This document shows positions 24,153 through 64,000 of a DNA stretch of 64,000 nt, one piece after another (positions within the stretch are counted from its first letter, which is position 1; the number at the start of each line of letters is the position of its first letter). The DNA is from Brachyspira innocens ATCC 29796 (GTDB taxonomy: Bacteria > Spirochaetota > Brachyspiria > Brachyspirales > Brachyspiraceae): NCBI RefSeq assembly GCF_000384655.1, contig NZ_ARQI01000130.1, forward strand, positions 62,001 through 126,000, in the 5' to 3' direction. The position numbers and the translations under genes were made by a program. The notes below the pieces were generated by a model. The model worked only from the letters and a program-made list of their open reading frames with translations, did no database searches and was not told the DNA's origin.

Positions 24153-24216
24153 CAAAATACAAAGCTCTGTAAAGAGTATTTTTTAAGATATAAATATAAT
24201 TATTTGGAGTTAAACA

Positions 24217-24390
24217 ATGAAAACTATAAAAATTTTTGGTAAAAACAGAGAGGAAATTGAAAAACAAGCCAGAGATAAATATGGCGAAAGCTATTTTATT
24301 ATTAGTGTTAGAGAAAGCAAAAGAAAAAACATATTTGGCATGATTAAAAAAGAGTTTGAAGTTTCTATTGGTATATTAGAGCAATATTAA
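24217..24390 (+). CDS. FlhF N-domain-like mini-protein
   Basis: A 57-residue frame with a TTGGAG ribosome binding site lies in the 316-base gap between flhA and flhF. Its sequence (MKTIKIFGKNREEIEKQARD, then KYGESYFIIS, then IFGMIKKEFEVSI) lines up with the first ~55 residues of the FlhF encoded next (MVDIRTIRGKDKTDAFAKAR, VEYGGNFVILTS, FLGLGMKTEHELRI): a similar start, AR-x-x-YG, a hydrophobic strand, then FG/LG-x-x-K-x-E. It therefore looks like a stand-alone copy of the FlhF N-terminal domain. Whether it is functional, for example titrating an FlhF partner, is unknown. Moderately sure that it is a gene, less sure of the homology. Confidence 0.6.
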   Translation: MKTIKIFGKNREEIEKQARDKYGESYFIISVRESKRKNIFGMIKKEFEVSIGILEQY

Positions 24391-24468
24391 TAAAAAATTT
24401 AAGATAAATTATTAAGATATAAATATTTATAATCGAGGAGTTTCTAAGATGATTAGAGGAGTTACAAT

Positions 24469-26451: not shown

Positions 26452-26487
26452 AGATAATTATAAAAAACAGGAAATTAAGTATATATT

Positions 26488-27351: not shown

Positions 27352-27385
27352 AAATTATTAATGAATTAATACTTAGAGGTAATTT

Positions 27386-27994: not shown

Positions 27995-28035
27995 AACATA
28001 TTAAAATAAAGAATTTAATAGTTAGGGTGAATATT

Positions 28036-28935: not shown

Positions 28936-29010
28936 AAACGATAAAAAAGATAAATAAGAAATTATTTAGAAAAATTATATAGTAAAAAATTAATAACTAG
29001 AGTGAATATT

Positions 29011-29829
29011 ATGAAGATGAACAAAAAAGAAAAAGGTAAAATACCAAATATTACTAATGATAATGAACAGGAATATTGGCAGGAGTTTAAAAATACTCAG
29101 TCACCTTATATAAGAGAAGCTTTAATTATTAAATATTCTCCATTGGTAAAGTATGTTGCAAGCAAAATATCTGTTAATATGGGTTCGCATAAACATATTG
29201 AATTTCAGGATTTGGTGGGTTTCGGATCTTTCGGACTTATGGATGCTATTGATAAATATAACCCTAATAGAGATATTAAGTTCAAAACATATGCAGTTAC
29301 TAGAATTAGGGGAGCTATATATGATGAACTTAGAAAATTGGATTATCTTCCTAGGTCTATACGTAAAGATGTTAAAGAAATAGAGAAGGCAAGAGAAATA
29401 TTAGAGGCTAGATTAAGCAGAAATATAAAGCCTCAGGAAATAGCTGATATGCTTGGAATACCTATAAGCAAATATAATGAGACTATGAAAAGATATATAG
29501 AGGCTTCTCCTACTTCACTTAGCGATGTTTGGTATGTGGGAGATGATTCTGATGAAATATCTGTGATAGATACATTAAAATCTAATGATAAAACTAACCC
29601 TGAATATTTGGCTGAAAGAGAAGATGTAAAAAATAAAATAGTAGCTGCTTTGAAAAAACTTCCAGAAAAGGAAAAGCAGGTACTTATATTGTATTATTAT
29701 GATGATCTTACCTTAAAAGAGATTGGAAAAGTATTAGAGGTATCCGAGAGCAGAATATCTCAATTGCATACAAAGGCAATACAGCAATTAAGATATAGTC
29801 TTTCAGAGATAAAAAAACAATTATTATAA
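29011..29829 (+). CDS. fliA: Flagellar sigma factor FliA (sigma-28/WhiG type)
   Basis: RNA polymerase sigma factor for late flagellar genes. The 272 residues from ATG 29011 have the full set. Region 2 includes LVGFGSFGLMDAIDKYNP, FKTYAVTRIRGAIYDELRKL and the DYLPRSIR signature. Region 3 is ARLSRNIKPQEIADMLGI. Region 4 has LPEKEKQVLILYYYDDLTLKEIG and the recognition helix VSESRISQLHTKA. A GTG at 29002 is in frame, but GAGTG there serves better as ribosome binding site. It is preceded by its own rearranged paralogue and followed after 14 bases by fapA. Confidence 0.94.
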   Translation: MKMNKKEKGKIPNITNDNEQEYWQEFKNTQSPYIREALIIKYSPLVKYVASKISVNMGSHKHIEFQDLVGFGSFGLMDAIDKYNPNRDIKFKTYAVTRIRGAIYDELRKLDYLPRSIRKDVKEIEKAREILEARLSRNIKPQEIADMLGIPISKYNETMKRYIEASPTSLSDVWYVGDDSDEISVIDTLKSNDKTNPEYLAEREDVKNKIVAALKKLPEKEKQVLILYYYDDLTLKEIGKVLEVSESRISQLHTKAIQQLRYSLSEIKKQLL

Positions 29830-29843
29830 AATAGGTGATTTTT

Positions 29844-31826
29844 ATGAATGAGTTAAAAAGAAAAATATTGCAAAGCGATTTTTATAAAGAGGTTTATAAT
29901 AATAAAAATACACGTTCTGTTGAATTATCTGTAGCGTCTTTGGAACGCGGTATGCAGGAGGCTGCTGCTATATTTCAATGTCCGATTTATGAATTGAGTT
30001 ATAAGGTTTTGGAAGAGGGAAGCAAAGGATTTTTTAATATAGGTGCTAAACCATTTTTGGTAAGATATACACATATTACGTATGACAAATCTAATATAGG
30101 CCCTGCTATAGGAGCTGATTATACTGTTGGAAATGTAAATGATTATAACCAAGAAAAAGTAGTGTTTAATAAAGATACTGAAATAATTGTAAGAGTAAAA
30201 AGAGACGGAGTATTTTTAAAAGTTAATCCTCCAGTTGCTGATGGAAAAAGAATTGAAGATATAACAGCTTTGGAAGGTAAGTTAATAGATGCTGGAATAA
30301 AAGAATATGATTCTCATTTGGCTAAGAAAATGCTTCATGAACAGACTGGAGAATATGCCAAAGTTGCTGAATGGGACGTTGGAAGATCTGGAAATAATGC
30401 TAAGATTAGTTATAGTATTAGTGATGACAAAATGCGTGCTTATGTTACTGTAACCAAACCTAATAAAGGCGGAAGAGAAATGGATTTGCAGGACGTAAAA
30501 GAGCTAATGGAAAATAATGGAATTACTTTCGGATTTCAGGAAGAGAATGTTGTTAAGTGTTTAGAAGAAGGTACCTTTAATATACCTATACTTGCAGCTG
30601 AAGGACGTGCTCCTGTAAATGGTCAGAATGCTAAAGTGGAATATTTGGTTAATGTTAATAAAAAAGTTATACCTAAATATATAGGAGAGGATCAAAGTAT
30701 TGACTATAAAGATCTAAGCATAGTAGAAAATGTTGAGCAGGGGCAGAAATTAGCTAGGAAAATACCTGCAACTGATGGTGAAGTAGGAAGAACTGTACTT
30801 GGAGTAAAAATAGAAACTAAGAGCGGAAAAGATATTGATATTAAAGAAATATTGGGTGACAATGTTGAGATGTCTGATGATGGAGAGTATATAATATCTT
30901 CTATAAACGGACAGGTAGTACTTAGAGGAAAATCACTTAATGTTGAGCCTATATTTGAGGTTTCTGGAGATGTAGGTCCTGAGACTGGAAATATCAATTT
31001 TATTGGAAGTGTTGTTGTTAAAGGAAGTGTAAGTGATAATTATTCTATAAAAGCAGAAGGTAATATCGATGTACATGGAACTGTTGGAAAATGCGACCTT
31101 GAGGCTAAAGGTGATATTATGGTTAAACTTGGTATTCAGGGTAATGAAAATAGCTCTGTAAAAGCAGGCGGCGATGTTATTGCTAAGTTTATACAGTTTT
31201 CTAATGTTCAGGCTGGAAATAATGTTGTTGTTACAGAAGCTATACTTAATTCAAATATTGATGCTGATAATAGAATTATACTTATAGGTAAGAGAGCTTC
31301 TGCAAGCGGCGGAAGATTAAGAGCTTTAAGAGAAGTTAATGGTAAAGTTTTGGGCTCTCAGGCTGGTGCCATAACATTGATAGAAACAGGTATATCTCCT
31401 GCTAAAAGACGTGCCATTGATGATTTGGATAAAGAAAAAGAAGAATTAGACAGTTCTATAGAAGAAACAGAAAGAAATATAAAATCTCTTGAACAGGCTG
31501 CTAAACTTAAAAAACTTGATGATGAGAAAAAAGATCAGTTACAGAGTTATAAAGATCAGTTATCACAGGCGAATAGCAGAAGAGAAGAGGTTGTTTTAGA
31601 AAGAGAAGCATTAAATCAGAATATAGAAGTAGAAAAAGTGGAATCTACAGTTAGTGCTGGTAAAGAGATGCTTCCGGGAGTTAAATTAATTATAGGAAGT
31701 GCTGAGTTTACAATAAGACAAAGCTATAAAGCTATAACTTTCTTTGAAGAAGGCGGAATGATACAGACAGAAAAATATAGAGGCGAACCTAAAAATGACA
31801 GCAAAAAAAATGAAGATGATGAATAA
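29844..31826 (+). CDS. fapA: FapA/DUF342 family flagellar assembly protein
   Basis: A 660-residue protein from ATG 29844, with AGGTGA as ribosome binding site (an in-frame GTG at 29835 lies inside that site). The N-terminal ~75 residues look like a Jag-N-type domain (ASLERGMQEAAAIFQCPIYE, then VLEEGSKGFFNIGAKPFLV). The large central part is the DUF342 beta-helix: repeated short strands such as GSVSDNYSIKAEGNIDVHG, TVGKCDLEAKGDIMVK and SSVKAGGDVIAKFIQFSNVQ. The C-terminal ~130 residues form a coiled coil (DLDKEKEELDSSIEETERNI). FapA proteins are linked to flagellar assembly in other bacteria; the biochemical role is not settled. It is the last flagellar gene in the operon. Confidence 0.88.
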   Translation: MNELKRKILQSDFYKEVYNNKNTRSVELSVASLERGMQEAAAIFQCPIYELSYKVLEEGSKGFFNIGAKPFLVRYTHITYDKSNIGPAIGADYTVGNVNDYNQEKVVFNKDTEIIVRVKRDGVFLKVNPPVADGKRIEDITALEGKLIDAGIKEYDSHLAKKMLHEQTGEYAKVAEWDVGRSGNNAKISYSISDDKMRAYVTVTKPNKGGREMDLQDVKELMENNGITFGFQEENVVKCLEEGTFNIPILAAEGRAPVNGQNAKVEYLVNVNKKVIPKYIGEDQSIDYKDLSIVENVEQGQKLARKIPATDGEVGRTVLGVKIETKSGKDIDIKEILGDNVEMSDDGEYIISSINGQVVLRGKSLNVEPIFEVSGDVGPETGNINFIGSVVVKGSVSDNYSIKAEGNIDVHGTVGKCDLEAKGDIMVKLGIQGNENSSVKAGGDVIAKFIQFSNVQAGNNVVVTEAILNSNIDADNRIILIGKRASASGGRLRALREVNGKVLGSQAGAITLIETGISPAKRRAIDDLDKEKEELDSSIEETERNIKSLEQAAKLKKLDDEKKDQLQSYKDQLSQANSRREEVVLEREALNQNIEVEKVESTVSAGKEMLPGVKLIIGSAEFTIRQSYKAITFFEEGGMIQTEKYRGEPKNDSKKNEDDE

Positions 31827-42163: not shown

Positions 42164-42964
42164 ATGAAAAACTATTTAGAATTATTAAAAAAAGTATTGG
42201 AAGAAGGTGAGGAAACTTTAGACAGAACTGGAGTTGGTACAAGAAGAATATTCGGACCTCAATTAAGATTTAAATTTGAAGGAAATAAAATACCTATTAT
42301 AACTACAAAAAGAGTATTTATGAAAGGTGTTATTATAGAATTATTATGGTTTTTACAAGGTTCTACTAATATAAAATTTTTACTTGAAAATAATGTTCAT
42401 ATATGGGACGAATGGGCTGATGATATGGGAGAGCTTGGTCCTGTATACGGCAAACAGTGGAGAGCTTGGGAGACTAAAGAAGGAAATAAAATAGATCAGA
42501 TATCAAATATAGTAAACACATTAAGAAATAATCCTACTAGCAGAAGAAATATTTTAAATGCTTGGAATGTAGGGGAGATTGATAAAATGCATCTTCCTCC
42601 TTGTCATATGATGTGTCAGTTTTCTGTTAATAATAAAGGTGGAATTATAACACATTTATATCAGCGTTCTGCCGATTTATTTTTGGGTGTTCCTTTTAAT
42701 ATAAGTTCTTATGCTATACTTACAAGGCTTTTAGCTATGCATAGCGGACTTCATGCTTCAGAACTCATCATGACTTTTGGTGATGCTCATATTTATAATA
42801 ATCATATAGAACAGGTAAAACTTCAGCTTTCAAGAGAGCCTTATGAAAATACTGCAGAATTATTTATAGAGAATCGTCCTAATATATTTAGTCATGTTTA
42901 TGAAGATTTTAGATTAGAAGGCTATAAATATTATCCTACTATAAAAGCGGAGGTAGCAGTATGA
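42164..42964 (+). CDS. thyA: Thymidylate synthase ThyA
   Basis: Methylates dUMP to dTMP with methylene-tetrahydrofolate, releasing dihydrofolate. The 266 residues hold the family signature LPPCHMMCQFSV with the nucleophile Cys 147. Other marks are TLDRTGVGTRRIFGPQLRF near 19-37, GELGPVYGKQWRAW, YQRSADLFLGVPFNISSYA and GDAHIYNNH. The typical partner folA, which regenerates tetrahydrofolate, lies 2.4 kb downstream on the same strand, separated by a restriction-modification pair. The stop is 21 bases before the methyltransferase start. Confidence 0.97.
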   Translation: MKNYLELLKKVLEEGEETLDRTGVGTRRIFGPQLRFKFEGNKIPIITTKRVFMKGVIIELLWFLQGSTNIKFLLENNVHIWDEWADDMGELGPVYGKQWRAWETKEGNKIDQISNIVNTLRNNPTSRRNILNAWNVGEIDKMHLPPCHMMCQFSVNNKGGIITHLYQRSADLFLGVPFNISSYAILTRLLAMHSGLHASELIMTFGDAHIYNNHIEQVKLQLSREPYENTAELFIENRPNIFSHVYEDFRLEGYKYYPTIKAEVAV

Positions 42965-42985
42965 TTTTATGGAGTTTTATAAATA

Positions 42986-44557
42986 ATGAATAAGTCGGAC
43001 TTAATAACTTTAAATGCTGCAGCTATTTGGGCTTCAGAATATACTAACAAAGCAGTAACTATATCTAATATTAGTTATTTAGTTCAGTATGCTTTGATAG
43101 ATAAAGTTATAAATAATGGTGTAGCTTATGTTTCTCAATCAGATTTGAAAAAATATTACGATAAAAATAAAAGAGAAATTAATTGGAAAAATAAACTTGG
43201 AAATGATTTAAACTGGAAACTTTCTTTTGATAATTTAAAAGAATCTGATACTACAAAACATGTTCATCGTATGCACCCATACAAAGGAAAATTTATACCT
43301 CAGCTTGTTGAATATTTTATAGATAGTCATATAGATGAATTTAAAAAAGATATATATTTTAAAGAAAATGATATAATATTAGACCCATTTTGCGGAAGCG
43401 GTACAACTCTTGTTCAAGCTAATGAATTGGGTATTAATGCCATAGGTGTGGATATATCTGAATTTAATTCTATGATTTCAAATTGTAAAATAAGAGAAAT
43501 TGATTTAATAAATCTTGAAAATATTATTAATATTCTGACAGATAAATTAGAATGTTATATAAAACCAAGTTTGGAATTTGAATATGAACTTAATAATAAA
43601 TTGATAGAATTCAATGAAATTAATTTTAATATATTAGATTATAAAAAAAAAGTTAGGGATAAAAAGATAGATTCTAATATATACGGAAAAGAAAAAGAAG
43701 ATGAATTTCTAATTATTTATAACGATTTAATAAAAAAATATAATATAAAATTACATAATGATAATAATAATTCATTTATATATAAGTGGTTTATCCCAAG
43801 TATAGTTGATGAATTAAATTATATTAATAATTTAATAAATAATATAAATGATGTAAAAATAAAAAGTATCTTACAAGTAATTTTAAGTAGAACAATGCGT
43901 TCTTGCAGAGCAACAACTCATTCTGATTTGGGTACTTTATTAAAACCTGTAACATCCGCATATTATTGCCGTAAACATTATAAAATATGTAAACCATTAT
44001 TTTCTATTATTAAATGGTGGAAAAAATATTCTATTGATACAATAAAGCGTTTATATGAATTTAATTCATTAAGAACTAATACTCATCAATTATGTATAAC
44101 TGGGGATTCTAGGAATATAGATATTTTTAATGAAGTAAAAATATCTGATAATGTTTTTTATAATATATTAAAAAATAAAAGAATAAATGGTATATTTACA
44201 AGTCCACCGTATATAGGACTTATAGATTACCATGAGCAGCATGCTTATGCTTATGATTTATTTTCTTTTAATAGAAATGACAATTTTGAGATAGGTTCAT
44301 TATCTAAAGGTACAAGTTTAAATGCTAAAAAAGAATATACTGAAGATATATCAAAAGTTTTATTAAATGCTAAAAAATATATGCTAGATGATTATAATAT
44401 TTTTATTGTTGCTAATGATAAATATAATTTGTATCCTGAGATAGCTTATAAATCAAATATGAAAATAGTTAATACTTTTAAAAGACCTGTGTTAAATAGA
44501 GTAGAGAAAGATAAAGCAGCATACTCTGAAATAATATTTCACTTAAAAGAGTTATAG
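42986..44557 (+). CDS. Type II DNA methyltransferase (probably N4-cytosine), partner of a TdeIII-type nuclease
   Basis: A 523-residue AdoMet-dependent DNA methyltransferase. The order is HPYKGKFIPQLVEYF (residues ~92-106), the AdoMet-binding motif I DPFCGSGTT (~133-141) with GVDISEFN after it, a ~260-residue middle containing the likely target-recognition part, and the catalytic motif SPPY (~407-410) followed by DYHEQHAYAYDLF. SPPY is most common in N4-cytosine enzymes. By analogy with TdeIII systems it would modify GGNCC, but this is inferred from the neighbouring nuclease. It sits inside the thyA-folA unit, with codon use as AT-rich as its surroundings. Confidence 0.82.
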   Translation: MNKSDLITLNAAAIWASEYTNKAVTISNISYLVQYALIDKVINNGVAYVSQSDLKKYYDKNKREINWKNKLGNDLNWKLSFDNLKESDTTKHVHRMHPYKGKFIPQLVEYFIDSHIDEFKKDIYFKENDIILDPFCGSGTTLVQANELGINAIGVDISEFNSMISNCKIREIDLINLENIINILTDKLECYIKPSLEFEYELNNKLIEFNEINFNILDYKKKVRDKKIDSNIYGKEKEDEFLIIYNDLIKKYNIKLHNDNNNSFIYKWFIPSIVDELNYINNLINNINDVKIKSILQVILSRTMRSCRATTHSDLGTLLKPVTSAYYCRKHYKICKPLFSIIKWWKKYSIDTIKRLYEFNSLRTNTHQLCITGDSRNIDIFNEVKISDNVFYNILKNKRINGIFTSPPYIGLIDYHEQHAYAYDLFSFNRNDNFEIGSLSKGTSLNAKKEYTEDISKVLLNAKKYMLDDYNIFIVANDKYNLYPEIAYKSNMKIVNTFKRPVLNRVEKDKAAYSEIIFHLKEL

Positions 44558-44565
44558 GAGTTTTT

Positions 44566-45348
44566 ATGCCATTGAATAATAAACAAAAAGATGCTATAAA
44601 AGATAAATTATATACAACTTTAAGAAATAAATTTAAAGATTATAAACCAGAAACAACATCAATGCCTTTTCACACTCGTTTACTTGGTAAAGATAGAATG
44701 GCTTTATTTTCATTTATACATTCTTTAAATACTAATTTTGGTACTACAATATTTGAACCACTAGCCATTGAATTAGGTAAAGATAGATTTAAAGTTATTG
44801 ATAAGCAAGTTAAACCTAATGATATAATTACATCAGAATCACAAATAGTTATACAGAATATAATGGATGATCTTAGATCCGCTAATAAAAAACCAAATAA
44901 AGATAATGAAATTAAATTAATAAAAAAAGTGTGCAAAGTAGGGGAAGCTAAAAAAATAAAACCAACAAAGGTAGATATTTATATTGAAGATTATCATAAT
45001 AATATATATTTAATAGATTTAAAAACAGCAAAACCTAATAAAGGCGAATTTCAGAATTTTAAAAGGACTTTATTAGAATGGGCAGCAGTAACTTTATATT
45101 CTAATGATAAAAATAATGTTCATTCCATTATAGCTATACCGTACAATCCTTATGCACCGAAACCTTATGAAAGATGGACTATAGCTGGCATGCTTGATTT
45201 GGATAAAGAATTAAAAGTAGCAGAAGAACTTTGGAATTTTATAGGCGGTGATAATGTTTATGATGATATTTTATTATGTTTTGAAGAAGTAGGTCTTAAT
45301 ATGAGAAAAGAAATAGATGAATATTTTTCCAATTTTTTAAAAGGATAA
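44566..45348 (+). CDS. TdeIII-family type II restriction endonuclease
   Basis: A 260-residue protein recognised as the TdeIII/MjaII-type nuclease group, whose characterised members cut GGNCC. A PD-(D/E)xK-like active site is visible: KVDIYI (Asp 137), then YLIDLKTAKPN (Asp 151, Lys 153). Other family-like blocks are MPFHTRLLGKDRMALFSFIH near the start and SIIAIPYNPYAPKPYERW later. It follows the methyltransferase by 8 bases and is followed by folA after 3 bases. The frame is complete, so the system may be active. Its last two codons plus stop (AAAGGATAA) provide the folA ribosome binding site. Confidence 0.78.
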   Translation: MPLNNKQKDAIKDKLYTTLRNKFKDYKPETTSMPFHTRLLGKDRMALFSFIHSLNTNFGTTIFEPLAIELGKDRFKVIDKQVKPNDIITSESQIVIQNIMDDLRSANKKPNKDNEIKLIKKVCKVGEAKKIKPTKVDIYIEDYHNNIYLIDLKTAKPNKGEFQNFKRTLLEWAAVTLYSNDKNNVHSIIAIPYNPYAPKPYERWTIAGMLDLDKELKVAEELWNFIGGDNVYDDILLCFEEVGLNMRKEIDEYFSNFLKG

Positions 45349-45351
45349 TAT

Positions 45352-45849
45352 ATGATAGTTTCATTAATTGCGGCAGTGGATTCAAAAAATGGCATAGGTT
45401 TAAATGGTATTATGCCTTGGGGACATATAAAAGAAGATATGCAGTTTTTTAGGAGCACTACTACAGGATATCCTGTTATTATGGGACGTGTAACTTTTGA
45501 ATCTTTAGGATCTAAACCGCTTCCAAAAAGAAAAAATATTGTTATATCTTCTAGTATAAATAATGAGATTAAATATGATAATCTTTTTTTTGATAATTCA
45601 CTTGAAAATGTTTTGTCTAAATTGTTATTAGAAAAATATAATCAGATATTCATTATAGGAGGAGAATCTATATATAAAAAGGCGTTAGATTATGCTGATA
45701 GTATTTATCTTACTCACATAAATAAAGATTATAACTGTGATAGATTTTTTCCAGAAATGGATAAAAGTTTGTTTAATTCAAATAAATTAAAAAGTTTTAT
45801 CTATAATGATATAAATGTTGATATTGTGGAATATAGCAGAAAAAAATAG
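45352..45849 (+). CDS. folA: Dihydrofolate reductase
   Basis: NADPH-dependent reduction of dihydrofolate to tetrahydrofolate, completing the thymidylate cycle with ThyA. The 165 residues begin IVSLIAAVDSKNGIGLNGIMPWGHIKEDM (catalytic acidic residue in KEDM). The rest includes YPVIMGRVTFESLGSKPLPKRKNIVIS (NADPH and folate-binding blocks) and IIGGESIY. ATG 45352 is only 3 bases past the nuclease stop, and the AAAGGA ribosome binding site is made of nuclease codons. No promoter is evident between, so folA expression probably depends on transcription through the R-M genes. Confidence 0.95.
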   Translation: MIVSLIAAVDSKNGIGLNGIMPWGHIKEDMQFFRSTTTGYPVIMGRVTFESLGSKPLPKRKNIVISSSINNEIKYDNLFFDNSLENVLSKLLLEKYNQIFIIGGESIYKKALDYADSIYLTHINKDYNCDRFFPEMDKSLFNSNKLKSFIYNDINVDIVEYSRKK

Positions 45850-51686: not shown

Positions 51687-52832
51687 ATGGGAAAGAATGA
51701 AAAAGAATGGCAGGAAGTTAGGCTAGGGGATATATGCATAATTAATTATGGTAAAGGATTAATAAAATCAAAAGTTATCAAAGGTCATATTCCTGTTTAT
51801 AGCTCAAGTGGAATAACAAATTATCATAATAACTCATTAGTAAATTCAAAAGGTATAATAATTGGAAGAAAAGGTAATGCTGGAAGTGTCTTTTATTCAA
51901 AAGTCCCATTTTTCTGTATAGATACAACTTTTTATATAACAGAAAATAAAAATTATGATTTAAATTTTTTATATTATAACTTAATTTCACTTAATTTAAC
52001 AAATTATATAACTGGTACAGCAGTTCCTGGAATAACTAGACGTGATCTTTATTCTATAAATACTAAACTCCCGCCGCTGGAAGAACAAAAGAAAATCGCC
52101 TCCATACTCTCATCGCTTGACGACAAAATCGAACTCAATAACCGCATGAATAAAATACTCGAAGAGATGGCACAGACTATTTTTAAGGAATGGTTTGTCA
52201 ATTTCAACTTTCCGAGTGAAGATGGCAAACCCTATAAAGATAGCGGCGGCAAGATGATAGAAAGCGAGCTAGGGGCAATACCAGAGGGCTGGAGAATCGG
52301 AAAACTAGATGAAATAATAGAATTATTTGACAATAAGAGAATACCATTATCAAATATAGAAAGGGAAAAGAAGAAAAAAATATATCCATATTATGGAGCA
52401 GCATCACTTATGGATTATGTAGATGATTATATATTTGATGGAACATATGTTTTATTAGGTGAAGACGGAACAGTTATAGATTTAAAAGGATATCCTATAT
52501 TACAATATGTTTATGGTAAATTTTGGGTAAATAATCATGCTCATGTTATAAAAGGTAAAAATGGATTTAATGAAGAAAGTTTATTTATTTTACTAAAAAA
52601 TTTAAATGTAAGAAGTATAGTAACAGGTGCTGTTCAGCCTAAAATAAATCAAAACAATTTAAAATCATTAAAAATTATAATACCAGATAAAAATTTAATA
52701 TTAGATTATAATAAAATTTCAAAATCTATTTTCAATAAGATAAAATTCAATCAAATAGAAAACCAGAAACTTGCTTCTATTCGGGATACCCTATTGCCAA
52801 AGCTTATGAGCGGGGAGATTAGGGTAAAATAG
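51687..52832 (+). CDS. hsdS: Type I restriction-modification specificity subunit HsdS (orphan)
   Basis: DNA-recognition subunit that directs HsdM and HsdR. The 381 residues have two target-recognition domains: the first at ~1-130 (WQEVRLGDICIINYGKG start), the second at ~200-360. They are joined by the conserved coiled-coil spacer PPLEEQKKIASILSSLDDKI ... ILEEMAQTIFKEWFVNFNFP, and end with the second conserved helix ASIRDTLLPKLMSGEIRV. The spacer (about 52060-52290) uses G/C-rich codons (ATC, CTC, CGC, GCC, TCG) unlike the AT-rich recognition domains, a sign of mosaic assembly. No hsdM or hsdR is in the window. Debris of another hsdS end follows. Confidence 0.9.
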   Translation: MGKNEKEWQEVRLGDICIINYGKGLIKSKVIKGHIPVYSSSGITNYHNNSLVNSKGIIIGRKGNAGSVFYSKVPFFCIDTTFYITENKNYDLNFLYYNLISLNLTNYITGTAVPGITRRDLYSINTKLPPLEEQKKIASILSSLDDKIELNNRMNKILEEMAQTIFKEWFVNFNFPSEDGKPYKDSGGKMIESELGAIPEGWRIGKLDEIIELFDNKRIPLSNIEREKKKKIYPYYGAASLMDYVDDYIFDGTYVLLGEDGTVIDLKGYPILQYVYGKFWVNNHAHVIKGKNGFNEESLFILLKNLNVRSIVTGAVQPKINQNNLKSLKIIIPDKNLILDYNKISKSIFNKIKFNQIENQKLASIRDTLLPKLMSGEIRVK

Positions 52833-54089: not shown

Positions 54090-54118
54090 TTGACATATAC
54101 ATTAACATAATATAGAAT
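54090..54118 (+). promoter_or_regulatory. Sigma-70 promoter of the giant coiled-coil gene
   Basis: TTGACA (54090-54095), exact 17-base spacer, TAGAAT (54113-54118), 35 bases before the start codon. The -10 lies inside the inverted repeat 54101-54127. Confidence 0.75.
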
Positions 54119-54127: not shown

Positions 54128-54152
54128 ATACTATACTTGCGGAGTTTTTCTT

Positions 54153-57100
54153 ATGAACCCTGTTCTTCAATTAATACTAACTTTTGTTGTACCTCTATTA
54201 TTTATCGGTATTTATAGCGTAATCAATAGGAAAAAAAATTATAATGATAATAATTTTAGCGATATGTTTGCAGAAGAGAAAGCAGCGCTAGAAGGTATTG
54301 TAGAAGAGAAAATTTCCGAGGTTAGAGATAATGCTATAGATTTGGAAATAGCAGTTAAAAAAGCTGGTTTTATAAGCAAATCTATGGAAGAAGACCTAGC
54401 CAAGCTAAATAAAAGGATAGAATCATATAAAGATTATAAAGCAGCTGTGTCTCAGTATCAGGAACAAGTTGATTCTCTTGAAGAGGCTTATTTAGAGATA
54501 CTTAATAAAGTAGATACTGTATTAAAAGAACGTAATACTATAGAAAAAACATATAAAAGAATATCTGATGTTAAGGCTAAAATGTCAGAATTAGAAAAAA
54601 ATGTAGGATCCATACAGGATAAATTGATAGAATCTTATAATTCTAAATTAAATGAGTTTGAGAGCGAACTTTATAAGAGATTTGACGCTCTCACAACTAA
54701 TTTATTAGCTAGAGATGCTCATTACAGCACTATGGCGGAACAAGAAAAAGAAAAAATATCTGCTCTTACAGAGGAATTCAAACTCCACGTTGCCAAAAAA
54801 GAAGAATTATTTACAAATCAGCTTACTCAGCTTGCTGAAAGAACAGCACGTCATAATATAGAACAGCTTGCAGAGCTATTTGAGAAAGGAAGAGATGAAC
54901 TTATAAATAAATATTCATCATTTGCTGATGAAATTGATGTTAAATCTAAAGATATAGAAAATCGTTATGAAACTTTAAGCCAGTCAAAAGACGGTCTTGA
55001 AACAGAATTAAATAATTTAAGAGACACTATACATGATAGATTGAACTCTATAACAGAATCTAGCGTATTAGAGTTCCAAGATGAAATGGAAAAAACTAAA
55101 GAGATGCTCTACTCTACCCTAAAAGAAGGCCTTGAAAAAATAAGTATGGACAGAGAAGAGTTCTTAGATTCTATAGAACAAAAAGCTCATTCTTTAGAAA
55201 AATCTATAGATGATATAAAAGATAAAGCTGATTATATAAGCAAAGATTATGCTGAGAAAGCTCATCAGTTAGAAAGTGAGTTTTCAGTATTAAAAGATGA
55301 TATAAATAACAGATTTATAGCTGAAGTTGAGAATTTCTCTAATCATATAAAAAATGTTCTTGAAAATGAAGATGACGGTGTTATAACTCTTTATAGAAAC
55401 AAAACTAAAGAACTTAATGATTTAATCATATCTATAGATGGTATGAGTGAAGAAACTATGCTCAGAGCTGAGAGCAGATTTGAGGATATTGTTAACGATA
55501 TAGATAAATTAAAAGATGATATTCTAACAAGAGCTCAAGATGATATGGAATATTCTATAGATAATGCTAGAAGTTCTTTAATAGCAGAAATTAATGAACT
55601 TAGAAACGATGTTGAAACAGAAACTAATCTATTAAAAGATAAAATAGATGAAACACATTATCAAACTTCTGAAATAATATCTATACTTAATAATAAACAG
55701 GAAGAAATACTTGATTCTTTAAGTCTTCAAAAAGAGTATTTATATAAAGATTTAGAAACTCAGGCTAATGACAGAGTAAATGAAATAGAAAAGTTATTTG
55801 CTACTGTTAAAAATGAGTTGGAAGAAAATATTAATACATACATAAAAAATACATCTTCTGATTTAACTGCCATTGATGAAAAATTATCAGGTTTAAAAGA
55901 GCAGTATGATAAAGCCGCTTCTGATATAGATACTTTAAGTAAAGAAACAGAATCTAATATAAAAGACAATATAGAAAAACGTTTGGAAATATTAGAAAAA
56001 ACTTCAGTAGAAATTAACGGATTAGTAAGCAGAGCCAATGAAAAATTGGATGTTGGTATGAAAGATGCTGAAGATAAAATAGAAGGTATTAAAAAGGAAA
56101 TATCCGACTACAGCGATGCATATATAGATAGTTTGAAATCTCATTTAAAAACTGTTTTAGATGACTATGAACAAACTAAAATGAAAGCTATAACTGATAG
56201 TATAGATTCTGTTATAAGTCAGGTCGATGAAAGTGAAAAAAGACATGATGCTTTAATGAGCAGTATAGAAAATTCTTTAGATGATTTTAGAAATAAAGTA
56301 GACGCAGCTGTAGATGAAAATATAAAATTCAATGAGGAAACTAAAAAAGAAGTAGCTGATATGCTTCATGATGAGCTTCGTCAGGCTACTGATTCATTTG
56401 ATACTCTTTTAAATGAAAAAAGAGAGAGTATGAATAAAATAAAAGATGAAATTGAAGATATATTGCATAGAGTTGAAAATGGAAGAGATGTATTTGAACG
56501 CACAATAAATAAAGTGTATGAAAATGCTGAAGATAAAGAAAAAGAATTAATGTCTGATATAGAAGATAAATATAATTCTTTGGATAAAAAAATTGATGGC
56601 GTATTAGATGAAAGAAGAGCCGATTTGAATGCTATAAGTGCTGAATATCATGCTATGCTTGAGAAGTATTCTAATAATTTGAAAGATGATTATGAAGAAT
56701 TAAAACACCATGCTTCCTTAATGACAGATGAATATAAAATGCGTATAGAAAATCTAGGCGAGAGAATCAATGAAATAATCGATAATGCTAATAATATGCA
56801 GTCTGTAGTTGATGCTAAAACTGGAGAGATGGATTCGTATATAGCAGATAAAAAAGATGAAATTGCTAAAAGAACAGAAACTATATTTACAAATATAGAA
56901 TACGATACTTCTAAAAAATTAGATGAACTTAAATCATTAATAGATAATGCTATAGCTAAATATCAGGACGAAATAAAAGAAATAGAAACTTATAGACTTG
57001 AAGAAAATAAAAGTATTATAGAAGATGTAGAAAATATAGGTGCTGGCATAAGAAAAGATTATGAACAGTATACTAATATGCTTGAAGAACTCTACAATAA

Positions 57101-60100
57101 AGAAAAAAATTCTTTGAATGAGCATGTTAATACTTTGAAAGATGAGATAGAAAAAGCAAGAGAAGAATCCGAAGCTAAACATCTTACTAATGAATCTAAT
57201 TATATAGATGATTATTTGAATAAAGCTTCTTCAAAAATAGATGAAGAGGTTAATCGCCTAAATGAAGAGCTTAATGATTCATTCAATACTTTATACAGCG
57301 GTTTTTCTAAAATATTAGCTAAAATAAGAAAAGCTAATCATAAAAAAGCATTGCAGTCTATTGCTAAAATTAAAAAACATGCTGAAAAAGTTATATCTAA
57401 TACAGCAGCAGAAGTTAGAGACAGTCTTGGTCTAACATTAGAAGATTTAAGAAATGAGTTTATATCATTAAAAGATAATGTTGATGATAGATTAAGAGAA
57501 CAGGCAGATAAATTAATATCTAATAATGAAAATGTGCTTGCTATATTAGATGATCATGAAAGCAGACTAGAAAAAATAAATGATATCTCTAATATAATAG
57601 AAACTATAAAAGAAACTTTGTCTGAACAGATAGATGAATTAAAATCTAATATTTCAGACAGTAATGAAGATGTTAATAATAGAATAGAAGAAATTAAATC
57701 TTCTTTAATAGACAGAGAAGAATTAATAAACTTGCATGATAGTGAAAGAGAACTTCTTAAAAATCAGATAGAAGATATAAAAGAAGAGTTTGAACTATTT
57801 AAAGATAATATAATAAGAACTAATGAAGTAGAGATACCTGCCCTATTTGATGAAGAAAAAGAAAGAATAGAGAGAATGTTTGATGAGTTTAGTAAGAACC
57901 TACTCATGAGACTTACTGACAATGAAAGCGATATACATTATATAAAAGATGTATTATCTGAAGAGAGAAGTCATTTAATATCTCAAATAGAACTTTTAAG
58001 AAAAGATGTTGATGATATAAAAGATGATAATACAGTAACTGTTTTATCAGAAGAAAAGGCTGTTCTTGAAAACTCTTTAACTGCTTTAAGAGATGATTTT
58101 GATAAAATAATGGATTTGGAAAAAGATTTTGTTTCTCTTAAAAACAGAATGGAAGGAATCGACAGCGGATTGAAAGATGATGTTAAAGATTTATCTGATA
58201 AATTAAAAAGTTTCAGAGATAATTTAGAAGAAAAGATAGAAAAAAATTCAAATGGTCTTTATAAAGATATAGAAAATCTTAATAAAAATTTTGAAACTGT
58301 TAGAGAGAATATGTCCAGTTTGTTGGATAGAAATGAAGTTGAGTCATTAATCAATAATGAAAAAGAAAGATTAAATTCTATATTTGAGAGTTTAGCTTCT
58401 AACAATGAAGATTTTAAAGACAGATTAGAAAAACGTATATCTTATTTTGAGGACGTATGGTCTGATAATACTAGAATAAAAAGTATATATGCTTCAGATA
58501 TAAGAGAAGAAGTTGAAAATATAAGAAAAGAAGCTGATGTTAAGTATGACAATCATATAGCTCAATTGAAAGAAAAAATGAAATTAATTGAAGAGGATAT
58601 ATATGATTGGAAAAATGGTAATTTGAATACTTTACTTGCTCAGTTGGAAGATGCAAGAAAAGGAATAGAAAGCTTTATAGACACTTCAGAATCTAAGAAA
58701 AATCAATTCTTGATTGATATGCTAAGCAGTATAGAAAATAAAGAAAGTGAAATATATTCTCGTATAGATGAGAAGATATTAAATGCTGAAAATAAACTTT
58801 CTGATATAGACGAAAAATTAAATAATGCTATAGGAAATAGCTTGGAAAGTATTCATAATAGAATAAACGAATCTGTTGCAAAATATGATGAAGAGATAAA
58901 AAGAATAGAACATCATAGAGCAAATGAAGCTGAAGATTTAATATCTGATATGGAAGATTTGGGCAACAGCATACGTGAAGATTATGAAGAATATTCTATA
59001 ATGATAGATAAAATTTACGAAGATGCTGTGGCAGAATTAGAAACTCATCTTGAGAATATTAAAAAAGAAATAGAAAGAGCAAGAGCCGAATCTGAAGAGA
59101 AACATTTGTCTAATGAAAAAAATTATATAGATGATTATTTATTAGATTATTCTGAAAAAATAGAAGCTCATGTTAATGATAAATTGAGTATATTAACTGA
59201 AAGTAAAGCTCAGTTAGATGATATGATAAAAGATTCATTCAGCACTCTTAATGCTAATTTGAATGATACTATATCTAAATTTAATGAAGAAGCAAATAGT
59301 CAGATATACTCTGTTGTTGAAAGATTAGAAAGAGAAGCAGCGGCAAGATTGTTTAGTGAACAGAAATATATGTCTGACTTGGAAGAACAATTAAGAGCTA
59401 TTAGTGCAAAAATAGATAATGAGCTTTATAATATTTCTTCTAAGTTAGATAGTGAAATATCTGATGTAAAAACAAAATATAAAGATTTGAGTACTGATTT
59501 TGATGAAGCATTAGATATGATAAAAAGCTCTATTCTTGACAGAGATGAACTTATGGAACTTCAGTCATCAGAAAAAGAACTTTTATCTGAGCAAATGGAA
59601 ACTTTGAGAACAGATTTTGATACTTTCAAAGATGAATTGTTAAAAGCCAATGAAGAGGATATACCTACCCTATTTAATGAAGAAAAACAAAAGATAGAAA
59701 AAGCATTTGAAGATTTTACTAATGTTATACTCGATAGAATGGTGGATTCTGAAAATGATATTAATAATGTAAAAGACGCTATATCAGAAAATAAGGCTTC
59801 TTTCTTAGAAAAAGTTGAAAATATTAAAAGAGATATAGAATCAATAAGAGAAGATAATACTATAGCTCAGCTTGCTTTAGATAAACAGTCTTTGGAAGAG
59901 TCTTTTAATGCTATAAAAAATGATTTTTCTAAATTAAATGATTTAGAAAGTAATTTTTATCATTTGAACGACAGACTTGAAGATTTCCAATTGAAAGTTG
60001 CTGCTGACAATGATAATTTATTTGAAAATATAGATAATATAAAAAGCAGCATAAAAGATTCCATAAGCAAATCTTCTGAGCTTGATGATAAATTTACTTC

Positions 60101-63100
60101 AATAAAAGATAATGTATTTACTGTATTGGGTAAAAATGAAAATATAGAAAATATGTTTGCTGAGGAAGTAAAAAAATTAGATGAATTATTTAATAACTTC
60201 AAAACTGATAATGCTGAGTTTAGAAGCAGATTAGAAAAACGTATTGATTATTTTGAGGATATATGGTCTGACAGTAGCAGAATAAGAAGTTTGTATGCAG
60301 CTGATTTAAGAGATGAATTAGACAGCATAAAAGCAGAAACTGAAGTTAAATTAGAAAATTATCTTAATGATTTGAATGACAGAATAGAAACTATTAATAA
60401 TGATGCATCTTCTTGGAGAGATGAATATATTAATGATTTCAAAGAAAAAATTGATTCTCTTGATAAAGATATATCAAGCTGGAAAGACGGACGCATTAAT
60501 GATCTTTTAGAACAGTTAGAAAAAGCTAAAGAAAATATTAATAGTTATTTAGAATCTTCTGAAGGTAAAAAAGAAGAATTATTATCTGATATACTATCAA
60601 AAATTGAAGAGAAAGAAAACTCTCTCTATGGAAAAATAGATAGCAAGATAGAAGAGATAGAAGGCAGATTATCTATTGTAGACAGCAAAATATCAGATGA
60701 TATAGCCAGAGGTTTAGAAGAAGTACAATCTATAGTAAATAATGCCGTAAACAAATACGATGAAGAGATAAAAAATATAGAACATCATAGATCTGAAGAA
60801 AGTTCTAAATTATTAGAGGATATACAATCAGGTTATGATTATTATTCTAAACTTATAAATAATACTTATAAAGATTCATTGTCTTCTTTGTCAGAGTACA
60901 CTAACAGAATTAAAGCAGAAATAGAAAAAGCTAGAAAAGAAACAGAAGCTAAACATCTTAATAATGAAAAAAATTATATAGATGAGTATTTAAAAGAATA
61001 TTCATTAAAATTAGATAATCAGGTTAATGAAAAAATAAATGTATTAAATGATACTAAAAATCAATTAGATGATATGATAAGAGAATCATTTAATACTCTT
61101 AATAATAACTTGAATGAAGCAGTAATTAAGTTTAATGAAGAAGCTGACATGAAAATTAATGCTACTCTTGAAAGATTAGAGAGAGATGCTTCTGAAAAAT
61201 TATTAGACTATAATAATTATGTTGCTGAATTGGAAGACAGTTTAAGAGTTCTTAATTCTAAAATAGATAATGAGATATACAATGTATCTTCAAAACTAGA
61301 TAGCGAAATATCTGATATAAAAAATAGATATAAAGAGCTTAGTATAGATTTTGAAGAATCATTGGATATGATAAAAGGTTCTATTCTTGACAGAGATGAA
61401 CTTATGGATTTGCATACATCTGAAAAAGAACTTTTATCAAACCAAATAGATGAGATTAAAAATGATTTCATTACTTTGAAAGAAGAGGCTTTAAATGCTG
61501 GAAAAGAAGATATACCTGCCCTATTTGATGAAGAAAAACAAAAAATAGAAAATGCTTTTGAACAGTTTACTAATGCTTTATTATACAGAGTAAATAATTC
61601 TGAAAATGATATTAATTATCTTAAAGATGCATTATCAGAGGATAAACTCTCACTATTAGAAAAGATAGATAATTTAAAGTCTGAAATAAGAACTTTAAAA
61701 GAAGAGGATAAAGTAAATAAATTAGCATTAGAAAAACAGGCATTAGAAGAGTCTTTTAATGCTATAAAAAATGATTTCTCTAAATTAGAAGATTTGGAAA
61801 ATCGCTTGCATGAATTAAAAAATAACATGTATACTACAGATGTTAATTTGAAAGATGAAGTTGCTAATTTGTCTAGTAAATTTGTAGATATTGAAAATAA
61901 AATAAATGAAAATAATGACTATATAGACAGAAATATAAGCAATAATATATCAGCTTTAAATAAAGATATTGATATAATAAAAAATGCTGTAAATGAATCT
62001 ATAAATAAATCATCAGAACTAGAAAATAATATTCTAAAAGACAGAGAAGAATTGGAAAACAGAATCGATTCTCTAAAAGAAAGTTTAATAAATATATTAG
62101 GCGATAATGAAACAGTAGAAGGCTTATTTTCTAATGAAGTAAAAAGAATAGATGAATTATTTAATAACTTCAAAAAAGATAGTATAGATTTTAGGGATAG
62201 ATTAGAAAAACGCATAACTTATTTTGAAGATACTTGGTCAGATAGTACTAAGATAAGAAGTTTATATGCTTCAGAAATGCGTAATGAACTTGAGGAAGTT
62301 AAAAATGCAGCAGAAAAAAGATTTGAAAACTATCTTAATGATCTAAGCTATAAGATAGAAAGTATAGATAAAGATATATCTAGTTGGAAAGATGTACGCA
62401 TTAATGATTTATTAGAAGAGTTGGAAACAGCTAGAGAAAATATAGAAGAATACCTAAATTCTACTGAAGGCAAGAAAGAAGAGTTAATCTCTGATATACT
62501 TTCAAAAATAGAAGAAAAAGAGAACTCTATCTACGGAAAAATAGATAGCAAAATAGAAGAGATAGAAAATAGATTATCTGTAGTTGATAGTAAAGTATCA
62601 GATGATATAGCTAGAGGTTTAGAAGAAGTACAGTCTATAATAAATAATGCTGTAAATAAATATGATGAAGAGATAAAAAATATAGAACATCATAGAACAG
62701 AGGAAGGTTCTAAATTATTAGAGGATATCAAATCAGGCTATGATTATTATTCTAAACTTATAAATAATACATATAAAGATTCTTTATCTTCATTATCAGA
62801 ATACACTAACAGAATAAAATCAGAGATAGAAAAAGCTAGAAAAGAAGCAGAGAATAAAGGTTCTAATGTAGATAAGAATTATATAGATGAGTATTTAAAA
62901 GAGTATTCAGAGAAATTAGATAATCAGATAAACGAGAAGATAGGTATATTAAATGACAGTAAAACTCAATTAGATGATATGATAAGAGATTCGTTTAATA
63001 CACTTAATACTAATTTGAATGAAGCTATATCTAAACTTAATTCTGAAGCAGATAGTAAGATAGAAAGTGTAGTGTCTAAATTAGAAGCAGAAGTATCAGA

Positions 63101-64000
63101 CAGACTATTTAATTATAAAGAATACATATCAGAATTGGATAGTCATTTACAGTCTATTAATTCTAAAATAGATAATGAGATATATAATGTGTCTTCAAAA
63201 CTAGATAAAGAAGTATCAGAATTAAAAGCTAAATATGATTCATTAAATATAGACTTTGAAGAAACATTAGATATGATAAAAGGTTCTATACTTGACAGAG
63301 ATGAACTTATTGAACTTCAGGCTTCAGAAAAAGAAATGTTGTCTGATAGATTGGACGAAATGAAAAAAGACTTTGATGATTTTAGAGAAGAATTATTAAA
63401 ATCGGACAAAGCAGATGTGTCTAGTATATTTGAAGAAGAGAAAGAGAGAATAGAAAATGCCTTTGAAGAGTTTACAAGTAATTTATTAGACAGAGTAAAT
63501 ACTTCAGAAAGTGACATAAACTATTTGAAAGATGTATTATCAGAAGATAAATTATCATTGTTAGAAAAAATAGACAGCTTGAAAGAAGAGATAGATAATT
63601 TAAGAGAAGATGATACCATAACTCAGCTTAGTTTAGAAAAACAAGCATTGGAAGAGTCTTTTAATTCTATTAAGAATGATTTTTCTAAATTAGAAGATTT
63701 AGAGAGCCGTTTGTATGAATTAAAAAATAATATGGAAGATACAGATATCAGCTTGAAAGATGAGGTAAAAAGTTTATCCAGCCGTTTTGAAGATTTAGAG
63801 CAGAGAGTATCTGAAGATAAAGATGGTATAGAAAAAGACATAATCTCTAATTATGATAGCTTAAGCAGTGATATAGAAAGTATCAGAAATGAAATACAGA
63901 ACTCTATAGATAAATCATTGGAATTGGAAAATAATATTCTAAAAGATAGAGAAGACTTAGAAAATAAACTAGAATCATTAAAAGAAAACTTAACTAACAT
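54153..64000 (+). CDS. Giant membrane-anchored coiled-coil protein with ~630-residue repeats (3' end outside the window)
   Basis: One uninterrupted frame from ATG 54153 (GGAG ribosome binding site 8 bases before) runs past the window end: at least 3,282 codons, over 370 kDa. Residues ~4-24 form a single hydrophobic helix followed by RKK, which by the positive-inside rule places the rest in the cytoplasm. Everything after is charged, helical and almost free of Pro and Cys, with heptad-like Leu/Ile spacing. From about 56.8 kb on it repeats: landmarks NYIDDYL/NYIDEYL, DEEIKxIEHHR, RLEKRIxYFEDxWSD and LDRDELxxL recur every 1.85-1.92 kb. No enzymatic motif is seen. It could be a cytoskeletal or envelope-scaffold filament; SMC-like ATPase motifs are absent so far. 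Confidence 0.85.
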   Translation, partial: MNPVLQLILTFVVPLLFIGIYSVINRKKNYNDNNFSDMFAEEKAALEGIVEEKISEVRDNAIDLEIAVKKAGFISKSMEEDLAKLNKRIESYKDYKAAVSQYQEQVDSLEEAYLEILNKVDTVLKERNTIEKTYKRISDVKAKMSELEKNVGSIQDKLIESYNSKLNEFESELYKRFDALTTNLLARDAHYSTMAEQEKEKISALTEEFKLHVAKKEELFTNQLTQLAERTARHNIEQLAELFEKGRDELINKYSSFADEIDVKSKDIENRYETLSQSKDGLETELNNLRDTIHDRLNSITESSVLEFQDEMEKTKEMLYSTLKEGLEKISMDREEFLDSIEQKAHSLEKSIDDIKDKADYISKDYAEKAHQLESEFSVLKDDINNRFIAEVENFSNHIKNVLENEDDGVITLYRNKTKELNDLIISIDGMSEETMLRAESRFEDIVNDIDKLKDDILTRAQDDMEYSIDNARSSLIAEINELRNDVETETNLLKDKIDETHYQTSEIISILNNKQEEILDSLSLQKEYLYKDLETQANDRVNEIEKLFATVKNELEENINTYIKNTSSDLTAIDEKLSGLKEQYDKAASDIDTLSKETESNIKDNIEKRLEILEKTSVEINGLVSRANEKLDVGMKDAEDKIEGIKKEISDYSDAYIDSLKSHLKTVLDDYEQTKMKAITDSIDSVISQVDESEKRHDALMSSIENSLDDFRNKVDAAVDENIKFNEETKKEVADMLHDELRQATDSFDTLLNEKRESMNKIKDEIEDILHRVENGRDVFERTINKVYENAEDKEKELMSDIEDKYNSLDKKIDGVLDERRADLNAISAEYHAMLEKYSNNLKDDYEELKHHASLMTDEYKMRIENLGERINEIIDNANNMQSVVDAKTGEMDSYIADKKDEIAKRTETIFTNIEYDTSKKLDELKSLIDNAIAKYQDEIKEIETYRLEENKSIIEDVENIGAGIRKDYEQYTNMLEELYNKEKNSLNEHVNTLKDEIEKAREESEAKHLTNESNYIDDYLNKASSKIDEEVNRLNEELNDSFNTLYSGFSKILAKIRKANHKKALQSIAKIKKHAEKVISNTAAEVRDSLGLTLEDLRNEFISLKDNVDDRLREQADKLISNNENVLAILDDHESRLEKINDISNIIETIKETLSEQIDELKSNISDSNEDVNNRIEEIKSSLIDREELINLHDSERELLKNQIEDIKEEFELFKDNIIRTNEVEIPALFDEEKERIERMFDEFSKNLLMRLTDNESDIHYIKDVLSEERSHLISQIELLRKDVDDIKDDNTVTVLSEEKAVLENSLTALRDDFDKIMDLEKDFVSLKNRMEGIDSGLKDDVKDLSDKLKSFRDNLEEKIEKNSNGLYKDIENLNKNFETVRENMSSLLDRNEVESLINNEKERLNSIFESLASNNEDFKDRLEKRISYFEDVWSDNTRIKSIYASDIREEVENIRKEADVKYDNHIAQLKEKMKLIEEDIYDWKNGNLNTLLAQLEDARKGIESFIDTSESKKNQFLIDMLSSIENKESEIYSRIDEKILNAENKLSDIDEKLNNAIGNSLESIHNRINESVAKYDEEIKRIEHHRANEAEDLISDMEDLGNSIREDYEEYSIMIDKIYEDAVAELETHLENIKKEIERARAESEEKHLSNEKNYIDDYLLDYSEKIEAHVNDKLSILTESKAQLDDMIKDSFSTLNANLNDTISKFNEEANSQIYSVVERLEREAAARLFSEQKYMSDLEEQLRAISAKIDNELYNISSKLDSEISDVKTKYKDLSTDFDEALDMIKSSILDRDELMELQSSEKELLSEQMETLRTDFDTFKDELLKANEEDIPTLFNEEKQKIEKAFEDFTNVILDRMVDSENDINNVKDAISENKASFLEKVENIKRDIESIREDNTIAQLALDKQSLEESFNAIKNDFSKLNDLESNFYHLNDRLEDFQLKVAADNDNLFENIDNIKSSIKDSISKSSELDDKFTSIKDNVFTVLGKNENIENMFAEEVKKLDELFNNFKTDNAEFRSRLEKRIDYFEDIWSDSSRIRSLYAADLRDELDSIKAETEVKLENYLNDLNDRIETINNDASSWRDEYINDFKEKIDSLDKDISSWKDGRINDLLEQLEKAKENINSYLESSEGKKEELLSDILSKIEEKENSLYGKIDSKIEEIEGRLSIVDSKISDDIARGLEEVQSIVNNAVNKYDEEIKNIEHHRSEESSKLLEDIQSGYDYYSKLINNTYKDSLSSLSEYTNRIKAEIEKARKETEAKHLNNEKNYIDEYLKEYSLKLDNQVNEKINVLNDTKNQLDDMIRESFNTLNNNLNEAVIKFNEEADMKINATLERLERDASEKLLDYNNYVAELEDSLRVLNSKIDNEIYNVSSKLDSEISDIKNRYKELSIDFEESLDMIKGSILDRDELMDLHTSEKELLSNQIDEIKNDFITLKEEALNAGKEDIPALFDEEKQKIENAFEQFTNALLYRVNNSENDINYLKDALSEDKLSLLEKIDNLKSEIRTLKEEDKVNKLALEKQALEESFNAIKNDFSKLEDLENRLHELKNNMYTTDVNLKDEVANLSSKFVDIENKINENNDYIDRNISNNISALNKDIDIIKNAVNESINKSSELENNILKDREELENRIDSLKESLINILGDNETVEGLFSNEVKRIDELFNNFKKDSIDFRDRLEKRITYFEDTWSDSTKIRSLYASEMRNELEEVKNAAEKRFENYLNDLSYKIESIDKDISSWKDVRINDLLEELETARENIEEYLNSTEGKKEELISDILSKIEEKENSIYGKIDSKIEEIENRLSVVDSKVSDDIARGLEEVQSIINNAVNKYDEEIKNIEHHRTEEGSKLLEDIKSGYDYYSKLINNTYKDSLSSLSEYTNRIKSEIEKARKEAENKGSNVDKNYIDEYLKEYSEKLDNQINEKIGILNDSKTQLDDMIRDSFNTLNTNLNEAISKLNSEADSKIESVVSKLEAEVSDRLFNYKEYISELDSHLQSINSKIDNEIYNVSSKLDKEVSELKAKYDSLNIDFEETLDMIKGSILDRDELIELQASEKEMLSDRLDEMKKDFDDFREELLKSDKADVSSIFEEEKERIENAFEEFTSNLLDRVNTSESDINYLKDVLSEDKLSLLEKIDSLKEEIDNLREDDTITQLSLEKQALEESFNSIKNDFSKLEDLESRLYELKNNMEDTDISLKDEVKSLSSRFEDLEQRVSEDKDGIEKDIISNYDSLSSDIESIRNEIQNSIDKSLELENNILKDREDLENKLESLKENLTN
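57198..59120 (+). repeat. Giant-gene repeat unit 1
   Basis: 1,923 bases (641 codons), counted from its NYIDDYL landmark to the next. It is the most diverged unit: it keeps NYIDDYL, IDREELINLHDSERELL, IPALFDEEKERIE and YFEDVWSD, but the part after the first landmark (RKANHKKALQSIAKIKKHAE) is unlike the others. Repeat-like sequence begins somewhat earlier, by ~56.96 kb. Confidence 0.75.
59121..60971 (+). repeat. Giant-gene repeat unit 2
   Basis: 1,851 bases (617 codons) between NYIDDYL (59121) and NYIDEYL (60972). Contains SILDRDELMELQSSEKELL, IPTLFNEEKQKIE, RLEKRIDYFEDIWSDSSRIR and YDEEIKNIEHHRSEE. Confidence 0.8.
60972..62876 (+). repeat. Giant-gene repeat unit 3
   Basis: 1,905 bases (635 codons) between NYIDEYL landmarks at 60972 and 62877. 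Contains SILDRDELMDLHTSEKELL, IPALFDEEKQKIE, RLEKRITYFEDTWSDSTKIR and YDEEIKNIEHHRTEE. Long stretches are nearly identical in DNA to unit 2's second half, for example around the GYDYYSKLINNTYKDSLSSL block. Confidence 0.8.
62877..64000 (+). repeat. Giant-gene repeat unit 4, cut by the window end
   Basis: 1,124 bases visible from NYIDEYL (62877). Contains SILDRDELIELQASEKEML and then, at 63.6-63.7 kb, LEKQALEESFNSIKNDFSKL, matching the same position in unit 3. The array clearly goes on beyond the window. Confidence 0.75.

Follow-up and report, generated by a model that had tools for sequence, protein, structure and literature searches.

The stretch of Brachyspira innocens DNA analysed here, 64,000 nucleotides long and referred to as the window, ends inside a reading frame that opens at position 54153 on the forward strand, and the locus raises the question of what so long a gene encodes and what its product might do in a spirochaete. 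The earlier note on this DNA had followed the frame for more than 3,280 codons up to the window edge and had allowed that a stop or frameshift might come shortly beyond it. In the organism's own genome assembly the frame indeed fills the window to its edge and then runs on unbroken for a further 13.4 kb to a clean stop (G000:C130:139421-139423), without N and without a frameshift, which gives a whole frame of 7,756 codons and a product of 7,756 amino acids and 903 kDa. The ATG at 54153 is the likely start since a promoter match ends at 54118 and a GGAG lies at 54141-54144, and an upstream ATG at 54120 is disfavoured because it coincides with the transcription start expected from that promoter. 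No intrinsic terminator was scored 3' of the stop. The features of the gene that lie within the window are as follows.

54090..54118, + strand, sigma-70-type promoter TTGACA-17-TAGAAT (11/12 matches; a consensus match only)
54141..54144, + strand, ribosome-binding site GGAG, 8 nt before the ATG (from the sequence)
54153..64000, + strand, SpiroCoCo gene, first 3,282 of 7,756 codons (open frame; continues to G000:C130:139423)
54162..54221, + strand, single N-terminal membrane helix (residues ~4-23), followed by NRKK (hydropathy)
54174..54833, + strand, SpiroCoCo_N domain (residues 8-227), membrane helix plus heptad coil with a period of 3.52 (NCBIfam profile, periodicity)
54840..64000, + strand, start of the shaft (whole shaft residues ~230-7420), period 3.64 residues (hydrophobic periodicity)
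58383..60188, + strand, repeat unit, residues 1411-2012, with W landmark (self-match, landmark)
60189..62159, + strand, repeat unit, residues 2013-2669 (self-match, landmark)
62160..64000, + strand, repeat unit, residues 2670-3304, cut by the window edge (self-match; AF2 model of the whole unit)

Just upstream of the giant gene, at 51687-52832, lies a gene for HsdS, the specificity subunit of a Type I restriction system, with no hsdM or hsdR adjoining.

The protein had been thought to belong to no named family, which is wrong, as both of its ends exceed the cut-offs of NCBIfam models for a family called SpiroCoCo. SpiroCoCo_N (NF047514) scores 166.8 bits over residues 8-227 (cut-off 75) and SpiroCoCo_C (NF047515) scores 211.4 bits over the last ~330 residues of the same protein, beyond the window (cut-off 125). 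The giant is real and a member of a named but unstudied family rather than something categorically new; no paper using the name SpiroCoCo was found in the open-access literature. Three things are new here: the protein's giant form, reached by repeat expansion, a shaft that does not follow a heptad pattern, and a tip linked to the flagellum. The family is almost universal in spirochaetes, including genomes that resemble Borrelia, Treponema and Leptospira, with the cut-off passed by SpiroCoCo_N in 284 and by SpiroCoCo_C in 271 of 393 Spirochaetota genomes. The giant shares with the rest of the family the two end domains, in the same order on either side of a long helical middle, but outside Brachyspira the full-length proteins are mostly of ~950-2,500 residues, with a few of 3,200-3,555 in another genus, whereas the Brachyspira proteins reach 7,100-9,100 residues through tandem repeats of ~600-680 residues and may be among the longest helical proteins in bacteria.

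The giant gene is not an assembly artefact, because other Brachyspira genomes, several of them single-contig or near-complete at one or two contigs, encode versions of 7,139-7,877 residues. The longest Brachyspira version has 9,127 residues and two extra W landmarks, and shorter versions of 3,906 and 5,588 residues are found in more distant members of the genus. Compared with its counterpart in the relative G113 the giant has 95.6% amino acid identity with 12.6% difference at four-fold sites, and compared with that in G058 the values are 79.8% and 30.4%; judged on such sequence comparisons and on the way in which differences fall across the codon positions, the gene is under purifying selection. 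The last 330 residues are 98% identical to those of Brachyspira sp. G79, and B. hampsonii, B. alvinipulli and B. catarrhinii also carry relatives. In one two-contig genome (L042, G093) the frame begins at KKNYG, past the membrane helix, and a stop or frameshift, either real or an assembly error, appears to have removed the anchor.

At its N-terminus the chain has one membrane helix, as the earlier note had proposed, followed by NRKK. The hydropathy of this helix (KD19) is 2.27 and the rest of the 7,756-residue chain never rises above 1.04. A cytoplasmic, membrane-anchored placement by the positive-inside rule is likewise supported at the level of sequence. The proposal that the protein is a coiled coil holds for both ends, which are heptad coils, but not for most of its length. 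Hydrophobic residues recur every 3.52 residues in the N-terminal coil and about every 3.45 in the C-terminal coil, compared with 3.64 in the shaft; a chemoreceptor encoded in the window, used as a control, gave 3.50. Autocorrelation peaks at 7, 14, 21 and 28 in both ends and at 7, 11, 18, 22, 29 and 40 in the shaft, which together with the 3.64-residue period points to an amphipathic helix of hendecad type and away from the classical heptad coiled coil. The same shaft period, 3.62-3.65, is found in the Brachyspira relatives and in all 20 proteins examined from other spirochaetes. AF2 predicts one whole repeat unit (residues 2670-3304) as nearly all helix at a mean pLDDT of 68, and the C-terminus as two long helices followed, after a flexible linker, by a compact tip of three helices at a pLDDT of about 92. 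The order of parts shown by the sequence is a membrane helix, a heptad coil, a predicted amphipathic helical shaft of ~7,200 residues, a second heptad coil and a helix-turn-helix (HTH)-like tip.

The tandem repeats of about 630 residues described earlier are also found when 300-residue pieces of the chain are compared with the whole by BLAST, with matches at offsets of 617, 635 and ~646 residues, identities of 48-76% and E values down to 1e-153. The picture of a giant repetitive helical protein is supported. The repeats are of ~600-680 residues, with strong similarity from about residue 1050 to 5100 that fades towards 6100 and beyond. A tryptophan landmark, RLEKRIxYFEDxWSD, recurs at residues 1431, 2033, 2690, 3325, 3985, 4658, 5254 and 6034, with a weaker ninth copy at 6772; the window contains just the first three. 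A catalytic head at the C-terminus, which would have placed the protein among SMC-like or other known families, was looked for and none was seen. SMC models score at most 55 bits, against cut-offs of 567 and 729, and the protein has no ATPase domain. ZorA models score at most 65.7 bits (cut-off 190-250) and in the shaft only, the giant having a single membrane helix and no MotA/ExbB-type channel domain. Matches to Rad50 and Exonuclease VII arise from coiled-coil or helical composition and fall far below the cut-offs. The likeness to SMC, Rad50 and ZorA is thus one of weak, coiled-coil-driven matches, and a sequence search of solved structures returned nothing beyond generic coiled coils.

An amphipathic helix with a period of 3.64 residues could also be imagined to lie flat on the inner membrane as a peripheral coat, in the manner of an apolipoprotein. 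The Apolipoprotein A1/A4/E model (PF01442, gathering score 90) does score 99.7-117 bits with three of the five pieces, although hendecad periodicity alone could account for such scores, and Lys and Arg are concentrated along the borders of the apolar face while acidic residues occupy the far face. However, the shaft carries a net charge of about -760 and its apolar arc is as narrow as that of the heptad N-terminal coil, a width that in itself does not separate a coiled coil from a membrane-lying helix, and we consider a coat very improbable.

The C-terminal tip is an HTH-like domain of the DUF6115 (PF19610) kind. The gathering score of that model, 27 bits, is passed by all seven of the other SpiroCoCo tips scored (29-36 bits), whereas the Brachyspira giant tip has diverged and scores 17.7-18.5 bits, below the threshold; it nevertheless aligns with the other SpiroCoCo tips in a profile comparison at 95.5%. 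A search of 11 flagellated genomes with DUF6115 returned SpiroCoCo and/or a short second protein of 165-253 residues, consisting of a transmembrane helix and an HTH (TM+HTH), which is the only close kin of the tip in the same genomes. Second matches in G211 and G004 were weak and were rejected as unrelated regulators. In six of eight genomes inspected the gene for the short protein closes the flagellar superoperon, preceded by a series such as FliP-FliR-FlhB-FlhA-FlhF-FlhG-FlgV-sigma28-FapA and one small gene. The SpiroCoCo tip matches the tip of this flagellar protein with a profile-profile probability of 98.1% (E 7.5e-14), and the Brachyspira tip alone does so at 86.9%, compared with 1% or less for four unrelated HTHs used as controls (including sigma-28 region 4, PadR and FtsK). 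No kinship was detectable between the N-terminal parts of the two proteins (27% in the profile comparison).

A flagellar-associated TM+HTH protein has been reported in the flagellar superoperon (Zamba-Campero et al. 2024, PMC11607428), and from position and architecture we infer that it is the short DUF6115 gene after FapA. Like the giant, the short protein has one N-terminal membrane helix and a DUF6115-type HTH tip at its C-terminus, but it has no long shaft. One Bacillus subtilis protein also matches DUF6115, and we take it to be SwrB. SwrB is a single-pass membrane protein that activates flagellar export through FliP, and according to the 2015 paper it is conserved only in Bacillus (PMC4526659). 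It can be likened to the giant by description, as a single-pass membrane protein acting on flagella, but it is short. The giant has the tip in common with the flagellar TM+HTH protein, but since it is a separate unit encoded outside the flagellar superoperon it is not classed as TM+HTH or SwrB-like.

Brachyspira has a short DUF6115 protein of its own, encoded on another contig (L071 1069-1830). The window itself contains a flagellar operon at 18871-31826, in the order FliP-FliR-FlhB-FlhA-FlhF-FlhG, a two-TM protein that fits FlgV, sigma28 and FapA, and here, in contrast to the arrangement elsewhere in the spirochaetes, no short TM+HTH gene comes after FapA. Two sigma-28-like genes stand in tandem in this operon, at 28027-28935 and 29002-29829; the second is intact, with regions 2, 3 and 4, whilst the first appears to be rearranged, its region 4 lying mid-gene and partial segments being repeated.

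The fold of the tip allows a different function, in which the HTH binds DNA and the shaft spaces the chromosome from the membrane. When the predicted tip was compared with the PDB by Foldseek only HTH folds were returned, none with an E value below 0.001, and the nearest were the DNA-binding HTHs of resolvases and response regulators. The giant tip moreover has a net charge of +4, but those of the other 20 proteins range from -2 to +3, the conserved last helix, GEVELILE, is acidic and hydrophobic, and kinship with the flagellar TM+HTH proteins points to the binding of protein. A membrane-to-nucleoid tether is hence improbable.

Relatives without flagella provide a further view of the tip. The presence of FliP and of the SpiroCoCo C-domain (E < 1e-15) was tabulated by hand for the 393 Spirochaetota genomes; 331 have both, 14 have FliP only, four have the C-domain only and 44 have neither. 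The four C-only genomes were rejected as flagella-less genomes with a tip, and are regarded as flagellated because all of them have flagellins and three have FlhA. The 44 with neither comprise 36 genomes of the f49 group, two of f50 and six others without FliP, which are mostly incomplete. FlhA and flagellin are absent from the two f49 genomes tested for them and from both f50 genomes, the remaining f49 genomes being classed as flagella-less on FliP alone, and SpiroCoCo_C is absent from all 38 genomes so classed. DUF6115 gave no matches in six flagella-less genomes. Fisher's test on the association of FliP with the C-domain gives p 4e-41, a value that overstates independence because the flagella-less clades represent few independent losses (f49 and f50).

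The f49 genomes keep an orthologue of 376-711 residues with the membrane helix and N-terminal coil and a short shaft, and those read have an acidic tail, such as EEEISLDEEDDKNT, in place of the tip. These tails match the flagellar TM+HTH tip at 0.1%. In two of the truncated orthologues (L076 and L077) long acidic tandem repeats, PETEEL and EPTADE, precede a conserved acidic end, EEEISLDEE. The gene lies in the order Der-HAD-[gene]-(GrpE)-DnaK-DnaJ in the five f49 loci inspected, a position between HAD and DnaK-DnaJ that SpiroCoCo also occupies in other spirochaetes; in one of these (L089) overlapping frames obscured the gene call and the coil gene was placed from its coordinates. A similar truncation has arisen independently in G371 (f50), where the neighbours differ from those of the f49 locus. 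The retention of anchor and coil in flagella-less clades indicates that part of the function of SpiroCoCo is not flagellar. Moreover, f49 is probably the Sphaerochaetaceae. The Sphaerochaetaceae lost their helical shape as well as their flagella, and hence the loss of flagella and the loss of shape in this group are inseparable from genomes alone.

The gene neighbourhoods speak against a purely flagellar role. In many genomes outside Brachyspira the neighbours of SpiroCoCo are HAD, ExbB/ExbD and GrpE-DnaK-DnaJ, and the gene sits outside flagellar operons. Among 20 non-Brachyspira loci (L051-L070) a HAD-family hydrolase is present in 18, in most directly upstream of SpiroCoCo, and ExbB is nearby in 11; the hydrolase is a possible functional partner. 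No HAD, GrpE or DnaK was found beside the giant gene in Brachyspira, and an upstream HAD is typical of the family but does not define it.

The earlier note had favoured a cytoplasmic scaffold for cell shape, and its membrane tether and helix stand. A flagella-independent version of this idea, in which a membrane-tethered filament beneath the inner membrane determines the shape of thin helical cells or the spacing within them, would fit the extreme length, the near-continuous helix and the anchor, the retention of anchor and coil without flagella, and the envelope and chaperone genes found as neighbours elsewhere. It leaves unexplained the kinship of the tip to a flagellar-operon protein and the loss of the tip with flagella, and we regard it as unlikely, though it is the main rival reading and less improbable than a coat or a nucleoid tether. 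Because the tip has its kin in the TM+HTH protein of the flagellar operon and is missing from flagella-less genomes, the evidence on role leans towards a flagellum-linked function.

The giant can be pictured as a cytoplasmic spacer of variable length, tethered to the membrane and docking with its tip on the flagellar machinery, a proposal to which we give an even chance. The chain would be tethered in the inner membrane and would oligomerise through its heptad coils, with the shaft acting as a spacer of variable length. As a single extended helix the shaft would measure ~1.15 µm, which is an upper bound and not a prediction of its folded state, and at that length it would have to run along the narrow cell; a chain of about 1 µm inside a thin cell is a physical oddity. 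The tip, as a relative of the flagellar TM+HTH tip, would dock on the machinery of flagellar export or of the basal body, or on its assembly factors. Such docking would serve to position, count or licence the periplasmic flagella, or would couple them mechanically to the membrane's cytoplasmic face. Against this reading, the tip may instead be a general adaptor. Across the phylum the extended-helix lengths of SpiroCoCo range from ~0.14 µm to over 1 µm. A wider role for the family, as a phylum-wide flagellar accessory in which an adjustable-length tether holds its tip on the flagellar base and its length could set the position of the apparatus or its distance from the pole, is offered tentatively and seems doubtful. 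With the homology of the tip and the natural truncations, a 'hypothetical coiled-coil protein' becomes the subject of a concrete hypothesis, one that bears on a long-standing question, namely what governs the placing and number of the internal flagella in spirochaetes.

Elsewhere in the window, at 42164-45849, an N6_N4_Mtase DNA methylase and a TdeIII-type restriction endonuclease lie between thymidylate synthase-like and dihydrofolate reductase-like genes, and read as a putative restriction-modification pair that has entered a cluster of folate genes.
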